Positions 19,649 to 58,747 of a stretch of 64,000 nt of DNA are shown in pieces. The stretch covers positions 434,001 through 498,000 of the forward strand of contig NZ_POVU01000002.1 of NCBI RefSeq assembly GCF_003261585.1, read 5' to 3'. Position 1 is the stretch's first letter. Every line of letters starts with the position of its first letter. Under the pieces are notes generated by a model. That model ran no database searches, was not told where the DNA came from, and saw only the letters and a list, made by a program, of their open reading frames with translations. Position numbers and translations under genes: made by a program. The DNA comes from Acinetobacter sp. MB5. GTDB lineage: Bacteria > Pseudomonadota > Gammaproteobacteria > Pseudomonadales > Moraxellaceae.

Positions 19649-19834
19649 TAGTCTCTGAGATGTTCGCCAGCGGGTCGAATTCCCCTGAGCCGATATCATT
19701 ACTTTAGGATTGCGTTCTGCGTATTTAGAGCGTATGCCTACCTTAGAGTAGGAAACCCAGCAAGTATGCGTCGCGTCCACCTTGAACTTTAGGGTTCAAG
19801 GGTAACGACATGCAGCGGCATCTTCGGAGTACTA
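19649..19834 (+). ncRNA. ssrS: 6S RNA
   Basis: 6S RNA mimics an open promoter and sequesters sigma-70 RNA polymerase, mainly in stationary phase. The 5' side carries TCTCTGAGATGTTCGC, AGCGGG and CCCCTGAGCCGATAT, as in E. coli 6S RNA. The 3' side carries CACCTTGAAC...GGGTTCAAGGGT and GCAGCGGCATCTTCGGAG, which closes the long rod. A good sigma-70 promoter precedes it: TTGCAT (19616-19621), 16 bp, TATACT (19638-19643), placing the start near 19650. The location after zapA is also as in E. coli. The last bases at the 3' end are estimated. Confidence 0.95.
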
Positions 19835-37469: not shown

Positions 37470-38483
37470 ATGACAACAGCAGATCAACGCCCAATTATTT
37501 TGACTGGTGACCGCCCAACTGGACAACTCCATTTAGGTCACTTTGTTGGTTCACTTCGCTCACGTGTTGGTTTACAAGACACACATCATCAACACATTTT
37601 ATTAGCTGATGCACAAGCATTGACTGACAATGCCGATAACTTTGAAAAAGTTCGTCGTAATGTCATTGAAGTTGCGACAGATTATCTAGCAGTCGGTATC
37701 GACCCGACTAAAACAACGATTTGTGTTCAGTCTCATTTATCTGCTTTAAATGAACTGACCATGCTGTATTTAAACTTCGTGACTGTGGCACGTTTAGAAC
37801 GTAATCCAACCATCAAATCTGAAATTCAGATGCGTGGTTTTGAGCGTGATATTCCCGCAGGTTTCTTATGCTACCCAGTGGCTCAAGCTGCCGACATCAC
37901 TGCATTTAAAGCGACAGTTGTTCCTGTGGGTGAAGATCAAATCCCCATGATCGAACAAACCAATGAAATTGTTCGTCGTGTAAACCGCCAAATTGGCCGT
38001 GATTTACTCCCAGAATGTAAAGCATTGCTATCAAATGTTGGTCGTTTACCTGGATTTGACGGGAAAGCTAAAATGTCAAAATCTTTGGGTAACACCATTG
38101 TGTTAAATGCGACAGACAAGGACATTAAAAAAGCTGTTAATGCAATGTATACAGATCCAAATCACTTGCGCATTGAAGATCCAGGTCAAGTTGAAGGCAA
38201 TGTGGTGTTTACTTATTTAGATGCCTTCGATCCAAACAAAGAAGAGTTAGAGGAGTTGAAAGCATACTATCGTCGCGGCGGTTTAGGTGATGGTACGGTG
38301 AAAAAACGTCTTGAAGGTATTCTAAAAGATTTGATCGCTCCAATTCGTGAACGCCGTAACGAGTTATCTAAAGATCCTGACTATATTATGGATGTTTTGA
38401 AAGCAGGTACTCAAAAGTGTCAAGTGATTACCCAAAACACTTTAGATGAAGTGAAAGATGGCCTTGGAATGTTCCGTTTCTGA
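37470..38483 (+). CDS. trpS: Tryptophanyl-tRNA synthetase
   Basis: A 337-residue class I aminoacyl-tRNA synthetase. The HIGH-type motif is GQLHLGHFVGS near residue 20 and the KMSKS motif is intact (DGKAKMSKSLGNT, about residue 198). GFLCYPVAQAADI and PVGEDQIPMIEQT bind Trp and ATP. The length matches bacterial TrpRS. It is divergent from the DUF808 gene. No T-box is expected in this group and none was seen. Confidence 0.96.
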   Translation: MTTADQRPIILTGDRPTGQLHLGHFVGSLRSRVGLQDTHHQHILLADAQALTDNADNFEKVRRNVIEVATDYLAVGIDPTKTTICVQSHLSALNELTMLYLNFVTVARLERNPTIKSEIQMRGFERDIPAGFLCYPVAQAADITAFKATVVPVGEDQIPMIEQTNEIVRRVNRQIGRDLLPECKALLSNVGRLPGFDGKAKMSKSLGNTIVLNATDKDIKKAVNAMYTDPNHLRIEDPGQVEGNVVFTYLDAFDPNKEELEELKAYYRRGGLGDGTVKKRLEGILKDLIAPIRERRNELSKDPDYIMDVLKAGTQKCQVITQNTLDEVKDGLGMFRF

Positions 38484-38598
38484 GCAAAATGTCAGAAAAA
38501 CCATCCCAAAAGTGACCATTTTTGTTAATTTCAAACAAAACGTGCAACAAATAGTGTCGTTTTTTTACGTTATTTAACACTTAGTCTATATAAAAGCC

Positions 38599-38740
38599 TA
38601 TTAATTTAGTCTGCTTTTTTATATACTAACTCTATAGCGTTTAGTTGTTACAACTAAATGACATTTCTCCATTTTACGGAACTGTTTTCAGTTTTTCGTT
38701 GTTCTACGCAGTGGTCACCCCAACCATTGCGTATTTTTTT
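38599..38740 (+). ncRNA. aar: Probable Aar small RNA (Hfq-type)
   Basis: A transcription unit without ORF between trpS and sucD. A promoter-like pair TTTACG (38564-38569) / TATATA (38587-38592), spaced 17 bp, lies at the 5' side. Within the transcript are a 9-bp perfect inverted repeat (TTTAGTTGT / ACAACTAAA, 38640-38658), a small AACTG-TTTT-CAGTT hairpin (38680-38693) and a 9-bp terminator stem (ACGCAGTGG / CCATTGCGT, 38706-38732) with seven T. In Acinetobacter baylyi an Hfq-dependent small RNA, Aar, linked to amino-acid metabolism, was described at this same trpS-sucD position. Identity is inferred from location and layout; the 5' end is estimated. Confidence 0.7.
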
Positions 38741-38754
38741 GTCTAAAAATCCTC

Positions 38755-38796
38755 AAAAAAAATCAAGTTTCCACTTTCATGAAAACTTGATTTTTA
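38755..38796 (-). terminator. Terminator after sucCD
   Basis: On the minus strand AAATCAAGTTT pairs with AAACTTGATTT around a loop of about 12 nt, followed by T residues. It lies 20 bp downstream of the sucD stop. Confidence 0.8.
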
Positions 38797-38816
38797 AACT
38801 TTAGAGAAATTACAAC

Positions 38817-39707
38817 TTAAACCAATTTTTTCTCTTTTAAGACTTCCAGCATGGTCGCACCAATTTCTGCAGGACTACGTGTATAAGCCATACCTGCGCG
38901 CTCAAATGCCATAAATTTCTCTTCCGCAGTCCCTTTACCACCAGAAATAATCGCGCCTGCATGCCCCATACGTTTACCTTTTGGTGCTGTCACTCCTGCA
39001 ATATAACCAACAACAGGCTTAGTCACATTGGACTGGATATATTCAGCAGCTTCTTCCTCGGCCGTTCCACCAATTTCACCAATCATAATAATGGCATCGG
39101 TATCTGGATCATCTTGGAAAAGTTTTAAAGCATCAATTTGATTCATACCTGGAATCGGATCTCCTCCAATCCCAATACAAGTCGACTGCCCAAGTCCTAA
39201 TTTTGTGGTTTGAGACACTGCTTCATAGGTCAAAGTACCTGAGCGTGAGATAATACCAATCCGCCCAGCTTGATGAATATGACCTGGCATAATCCCAATT
39301 TTACATTGGTCAGGTGTAATAATACCTGGACAGTTTGGCCCAATCAGACGTGTATTCTGACCACATGTTTCCAAATAGCGTTTTGCTTTTAACATATCCA
39401 GAGTTGGAACACCTTCCGTGATCACCACAATCAAACCAATCCCTGTATCAATTGCTTCAATTACAGAATCTAATACATAAGGTGCAGGGACATAAATGAC
39501 TGAAGCATCTGCCTGAGTCTCATTCACAGCATCTTGCATGGTATTAAATACAGGTAGGTCTAAATGTGTTTGCCCACCTTTACCTGGTGTGACACCACCC
39601 ACCACTTTCGTTCCGTAATTTAAGGCTTGTACCGAATGGAAAGTTCCGTTTTTTCCTGTGAAGCCTTGCACTAAAACTTTTGTATCTTTATTGATTAATA
39701 CGCTCAT
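38817..39707 (-). CDS. sucD: Succinyl-CoA synthetase alpha subunit
   Basis: A 296-residue subunit of the enzyme that converts succinyl-CoA to succinate with ATP or GTP formation. The CoA-binding Rossmann motif is [29 protein letters not shown] and the P-loop region [15 protein letters not shown] follow. The phosphorylated histidine is in [15 protein letters not shown] good ribosome-binding site (AAGGAATTTCAGCATG) precedes the start, 11 bp after sucC. Confidence 0.97.
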
Positions 39708-58670: not shown

Positions 58671-58747
58671 TGGTGGCTATGACGAGACTTGAACTTGTGA
58701 CCCCCGCATTATGAGTGCGGTGCTCTAACCAACTGAGCTACATAGCC
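58671..58747 (-). tRNA. tRNA-Met (CAU), elongator
   Basis: A 77-nt cloverleaf on the minus strand with the 3' CCA encoded. Acceptor stem GGCTATG / CATAGCC, D-arm GCTC...GAGC, anticodon stem CCGCA / TGCGG with loop CTCATAA (anticodon CAT), T-loop TTCAAGT. The sequence resembles the E. coli elongator tRNA-Met more than initiator tRNA (the first base pair is intact, and there is no run of three G-C pairs next to the anticodon loop). A terminator follows at once, so it is a single-tRNA unit. Confidence 0.93.

Follow-up and report, generated by a model that had tools for sequence, protein, structure and literature searches.

The window, a 64,000-nt stretch of Acinetobacter sp. MB5 DNA, was found to contain a gene for the small RNA Aar on the forward strand after trpS. 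Judged from its sequence, the gene belongs to the Aar family, which is already known and goes back to work on A. baylyi (Schilling 2010), and its host is an Acinetobacter near A. brisouii. In its very probable layout, a sigma-70-type promoter, whose -10 is good and whose -35 is poor, is preceded by 10-bp-phased repeats that are probably activator sites, and would yield an RNA of approximately 107 nt (~38634-38740). In this RNA, a 5' hairpin would be followed by a single-stranded seed with CUCC as its core, then by a second hairpin and a U-tailed terminator. If the A. baumannii RNA is a guide, CUCC would pair, with Hfq, with the ribosome-binding sites of mRNAs and lower their translation. Aar is a prominent Acinetobacter small RNA which represses an outer-membrane porin in A. 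baumannii; the present analysis adds where the promoter lies, a reading of the palindrome as a 5' hairpin that covaries, and a set of conserved repeats upstream. The identity, anatomy, conserved structure and distribution of the RNA in the searched genomes were established by computation.

The first-pass annotation had called the RNA a probable Aar homologue, and this was upheld by the Rfam family model, by a model made from relatives and by the location after trpS. The Rfam Aar model (RF02375) matched 38563-38750 (+) with 70.8 bits compared to a gathering score of 60. The covariance model aligned end to end (model positions 1-191). The second hairpin and the terminator of the model fitted the window sequence closely. 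In contrast, the first ~70 model positions, read here as promoter and upstream DNA, fitted poorly by eye. Model R2 was made from 28 relatives, the window and its four nearest kin being left out; it scored 75.9 bits at window positions 38635-38740 (E 4e-16, 88 kb searched) and 74 to 78 bits on the four kin. When the window sequence was added to R2, the resulting short-Aar model (R1) gave a score of 84.8 bits on the window, a value that includes the window's own sequence. The closest TrpS proteins (99%) were those of two strains named Acinetobacter brisouii and of two other Acinetobacter strains.

Among relatives, RF02375 matched 35 of 58, 32 of them over the cut-off and all of the same genus, compared to 0 of 14 controls; two of 37 same-genus genomes were without a match. 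With a stricter filter, R1 matched 63 of the 199 genomes of the family, all in one of 16 genera, the non-matches listed including at least three same-genus genomes, and in the order sample it matched 1 of 95 genomes, the window's own. In the window, Aar is intergenic and on the same strand as trpS (tryptophan--tRNA ligase; 37470-38483, +), an ORF with a TIGR00233 match above the cut-off. R1 placed Aar after trpS at 78 of 81 trpS loci, or at 49 of 52 when the members of R1 (29 of the 78) were left out, and the genomes of the three remaining loci (L040, L069 and L090) carried Aar outside the fetched locus. Convergent sucD (succinate--CoA ligase subunit alpha; 38817-39707, -) lay within the fetched downstream stretch at only 20 of 80 loci. 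The earlier placement of the RNA between trpS and sucD therefore holds generally for trpS and is not typical for sucD, which makes trpS the better marker of the aar position. A separate inverted repeat at 38758-38795 (-), with arms 94% complementary and A/T runs on either side, is likely the terminator of the convergent sucD operon.

For comparison, the regions 3' of trpS in 80 named loci and in the window, 81 in all, were used. A filter for the terminator anchor and CTCC was passed by 66 of the 81; ten had the anchor without CTCC and five were without the anchor, two of the latter (L095 and L103) being misses of the filter. The 66 sequences were thinned at 88% identity to 35 representatives, window included, and a set of 29 omitted the six with another 5' layout (L042, L048, L052, L068, L074 and L092). 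Conservation of the region after trpS fell in blocks (35 representatives, 66 aligned sequences). The 188-nt Rfam match folded at -42.1 kcal/mol compared to -23.4 kcal/mol (sd 3.5) for shuffles (z -5.3; 0 of 200 as good). When sliding 30-nt windows were folded in the 29 representatives, those starting at 38520-38624 gave a mean z of 0 to -1.0. Peaks were found at 38636-38665, 38672-38701 and 38704-38733, with a mean z of -3.24, -3.21 and -7.07 and p<=0.05 in 20, 28 and 29 of the 29, respectively, and there was a lower shoulder near 38692-38725 (about -2.1, 19 of 29). By these sliding folds, conserved structure starts only near 38634, at the palindrome.

Arm-swap tests, in all of which the tree was ignored, gave the same picture for the 5' hairpin. 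In the 29 representatives, cognate arms paired at -6.47 kcal/mol compared to -3.34 kcal/mol (sd 0.35) for permuted arms (0 of 2000), and the outcome was 0 of 2000 with all 35 representatives and 0 of 5000 with 15 sequences that had at least 8 differing columns. For hairpin 2 and for the terminator, the outcome was likewise 0 of 2000. Three control windows gave 99, 179 and 856 of 2000 with the 29 representatives and 32, 359 and 781 with the 35, the smallest value in each set being that of the upstream-repeat window; 856 of the 29-representative set belonged to the -35 to -10 window.

The RNA start proposed by the first-pass annotation, 38564, probably does not hold, as it falls in conserved upstream DNA and the likely start is near 38634. 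Its promoter-like pair survived in one half: the -10 element TATACT at 38622-38627 (+) is backed by conservation, with TAnnnT in 66 of 66 aligned sequences, window included, and the -35-like element TATTAA at 38599-38604 (+) is poor. The latter reads xATGAA in 37 of 66 aligned sequences, the window having ATTAA at 38600-38604 where those have ATGAA. It lies 17 nt upstream of the -10 element, which is the spacing of sigma-70 promoters, and such spacing would put the RNA start approximately 7 nt past the -10, near 38634. Taken with the alignment, RF02375, R2 and the conserved structure, the predicted transcript probably covers 38634-38740 (+), 107 nt, with any start at 38634-38639 being possible, and 38562-38633 would in that case probably be promoter and upstream DNA. 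An imperfect 24-nt inverted repeat (38581-38604 / 38606-38629, 79% complementary) spans the -10 and the -35-like element; by eye, L031-L034, which are close relatives, differ within it.

The Aar of A. baumannii AB5075 (sRNA21) is given in the available part of PMC11472050 as 103 nt long, its CUCC seed lying at 29-32, and it has this seed, two 3' hairpins and a U-tail in common with the window. When the A. nosocomialis gene (L054) was cut at the alignment column that holds 38634 of the window, its length came to exactly 103 nt and CUCC fell at 29-32, and by way of this gene the start register of the AB5075 RNA agrees with that of the window. Position 38634 was set by the -10 spacing with the published register already known, so that this is an agreement and not a blind test. 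The window itself, cut at 38634, gave 107 nt with CUCC at 34, and counting 28 bases back from the seed led to 38639. A pattern scan of 38000-39300 found two promoter-like sites compared to 3.9 expected from shuffles, none of them in the intergenic region, and one terminator-like site compared to 1.4 expected, which is no excess. By a simple pattern scan alone, the aar site would go unnoticed.

Directly upstream of the poor -35, a conserved element at 38562-38597 (+) is made up of 10-bp-phased (T)TAAC-like repeats. All 35 representatives had the dinucleotide A-C at 38567-38568 and at 38577-38578, and all but one had it at 38588-38589 (34 of 35), the exception being the window, in which the third repeat is degenerate. 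Another 20 bp upstream and in phase with the repeats, the window has CAACA at 38545-38549 (+), and 21 of 35 representatives have TCACA. Phased direct repeats by a poor -35 are typical for activators of the OmpR/PhoB kind. The TTAAC-like repeats are probably activator-binding DNA, and we infer an activator acting on them in the window's species. The full repeat motif with up to two mismatches occurred once in each of four of five genomes, always at aar, and was absent from the window's genome; the reversed control pattern occurred twice over the five genomes, once in the window's genome. No published BfmR motif with which to compare the repeats was found in the literature consulted, including the available part of PMC4888885. 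According to the literature, AdeR and GacS affect the A. baumannii aar promoter slightly, and the aar promoter regions of A. baumannii and A. baylyi differ in major ways.

A longer Aar of approximately 180 nt, starting at ~38563 as in A. baylyi, would place the repeats and the whole of 38564-38633 inside the RNA. A form of this kind is possible because the A. baylyi Aar was reported as 181 nt, and it would agree with the RF02375 model spanning 38563-38750 end to end and with the helices seen within 38567-38640 in the single-sequence fold. The end-to-end span, however, includes the first part of the Rfam alignment, which is poor by eye, and the 30-nt windows starting at 38520-38624 had mean z values of only 0 to -1.0 in the 29 representatives. 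The arm-swap value of the upstream-repeat window, 32 of 2000 with all 35 representatives, likewise favors structure in this part, but with the 29 representatives it was 99, and that of the -35 to -10 window 856. Since the -10 at 38622-38627, which the long RNA would contain, is kept in 66 of 66 sequences, we consider the long form unlikely. For the genus as a whole, the balance tilts towards a short Aar with a 5' hairpin kept by compensatory change, the first ~40% of the Rfam model being promoter DNA with a 10-bp-phased activator array, and towards hairpin and array as overlooked control elements. If the short RNA, the covarying hairpin and the driving repeats are true, each would lend itself directly to mutational study, and promoter and RNA could be separated in the Rfam model.

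The 9-bp perfect palindrome noted earlier, TTTAGTTGTTACAACTAAA at 38640-38658, is exact, with arms at 38640-38648 and 38650-38658 and a 1-nt centre. With up to three mismatches allowed, the window held no second site besides the palindrome's own complement, compared to an expectation of 0.06 matches, and two matches were seen in 1 of 100 shuffles. Folds and arm swaps place it within a predicted 5' hairpin of 10 bp with a UUA loop at 38638-38660 (+). The first-pass annotation had also suggested an operator of the small RNA gene, and a DNA site for an aar repressor might indeed look like this: the inverted repeat is perfect over 9 bp, would lie at about +7 to +25 shortly past the start, and is unchanged in the nearest relative, while three others show a single change. 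An operator, however, should hold its letters across the genus, whereas here the arms change between clades and yet stay complementary, which favors a hairpin in the RNA over an operator in the DNA. The operator is thus quite improbable, and the palindrome is best read as an RNA 5' hairpin kept by compensatory change.

The 5' hairpin was not placed by rigid-column RNAalifold; its register shifts between clades, and sliding folds and arm swaps were for this reason used instead. It was predicted to be stronger in the window than in A. nosocomialis (-9.1 compared to -6.0 kcal/mol). According to the available part of PMC11472050, in-line probing of A. baumannii Aar in vitro did not reveal the 5' hairpin although it had been predicted; the hairpin may form solely inside cells, or A. 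baumannii may have a weak version of it. No earlier account of Aar covariation in Acinetobacter was found in the literature consulted, where other wording or supplements may hold one.

Downstream of the 5' hairpin, the seed ACAUUUCUCC at 38661-38670 (+) is predicted to be single-stranded, and its core CUCC (38667-38670) was unpaired in the fold, before two 3' hairpins. TTCTCC at 38665-38670 was found in 55 of 66 aligned sequences. The second hairpin and classic terminator of the first-pass annotation were both recovered, the former at 38676-38699 (+) with covarying pairs and the latter, rho-independent, at 38705-38740 (+) with an 11-bp stem (38705-38733) and a T7 tail. RNAalifold supported both helices, and for 7 of 16 pairs at least one sequence had both partners changed. 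All 66 aligned sequences shared the letters ACCCCAA around the terminator loop (38717-38723), suggesting a role beyond termination. A terminator with such a T7 tail would be the usual Hfq-binding type of 3' end. The description of the transcript as ORF-free needs some qualification: the ORFs of at least 30 aa over 38634-38740 are one of 33 aa and one of 48 aa only, and the ATG of the latter is present in 6 of 35 representatives, window included. That the RNA is a mere trpS 3'UTR or read-through product without a function of its own, which would be possible in that the sole terminator-like site in 38000-39300 is that of Aar, is highly improbable in view of the -10 conserved in 66 of 66 sequences, the presence of aar away from the trpS locus in three genomes and the description of A. 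baumannii Aar as independently transcribed (PMC12802169, available part).

In A. baumannii, CUCC of Aar was reported to pair with the ribosome-binding sites of three mRNAs, carO and bfnH among them. In E. coli, Aar repressed reporters of both carO and bfnH; in A. baumannii it repressed CarO, but a bfnH reporter showed no significant change (PMC11472050, available part). A rise of Aar expression in stationary phase was also reported for A. baumannii. A. baumannii Aar was also prominent on Hfq in RIL-seq, scarcer on Hfq depletion, and lowered an rsuA reporter (PMC12802169). A two-plasmid study gave carO repression of ~77% in E. coli and 10% in A. baumannii (PMC12646401). The role in amino-acid metabolism comes from over-expression work in A. 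baylyi, as cited by later papers. We infer transcription, Hfq binding and targets of Aar in the window's species.

In A. nosocomialis (G008), the seed paired at -16.1 kcal/mol with the start region of carO, a gene whose product NCBIfam identifies as CarO, and none of 200 shuffles did as well. The CarO relative in the window's genome was 54% identical, and the pairing there was -9.0 kcal/mol (p 0.09 compared to shuffles), the weakest of 27 genomes. In the brisouii-type seed CUCC is followed by A, in contrast to U in most relatives and in the A. baumannii AB5075 Aar (PMC11472050). Of 30 genomes with carO loci, 28 were scored, some starts or seeds being misread (G010, G019, G022 and G027), and p<=0.05 was obtained in 19 of the 28. 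For permutation, 27 genomes were used, with starts corrected and G019 left out (G014 and G035 were without a fetched Aar locus); the cognate mean was -12.14 compared to -11.57 (sd 0.18) for permuted pairs, 10 of 5000 being as low with the tree ignored. The lwoffii-type carO paired with main-type Aar at -13.3 and with its cognate seed at -13.0; because the main type pairs equally, co-evolution of Aar and carO is only hinted at. CUCC suits any strong Shine-Dalgarno sequence, so that pairing energies are weak evidence. It is plausible that carO is an old target of the genus; it is not established in the window's species, and carO regulation is not to be assumed in the brisouii-like clade.

A target pattern, GGAGAAATN{1,8}ATG, had 28 sites in the window's genome (reversed control 5) and 31 in G008 (reversed control 17), many of the sites lying inside genes, and no target is claimed from it. 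Pairing energies of the pattern targets with a 60-nt structured Aar were uninformative (28 and 30 sites analysed, respectively). One clear orthologous pair recurred among them, an 89-aa protein resembling ribosomal protein S15. The RsuA family had three members over the cut-off in the window's genome and three in G008. None of the RsuA-family starts examined paired well with the seed, one member (L185) having been read in another frame, and the result does not bear on the published rsuA.

Some loci of the comparison sample differed from the main type. In L035-L039 and L041, the Aar terminator was kept, the CTCC seed was not found by the filter, the 5' part was divergent or shortened, and R1 scores went down to 34-52 bits; several of the species among them are presumably nectar- or bee-associated. 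In L042, L052, L058 and L060-L063 (A. lwoffii and similar), another 5' layout was observed together with the seed CUCUCC, which the folds of L042 and L052 put into a hairpin loop. The carO start regions of four genomes carrying this seed read GGAGAG; the change may be a matching one, although main-type Aar pairs with these regions equally well. Elsewhere in the window, 6S RNA (SsrS; RF00013, 111 bits) was matched at 19649-19834 (+) and a tRNA gene (RF00005, 70.3 bits) at 58674-58747 (-).
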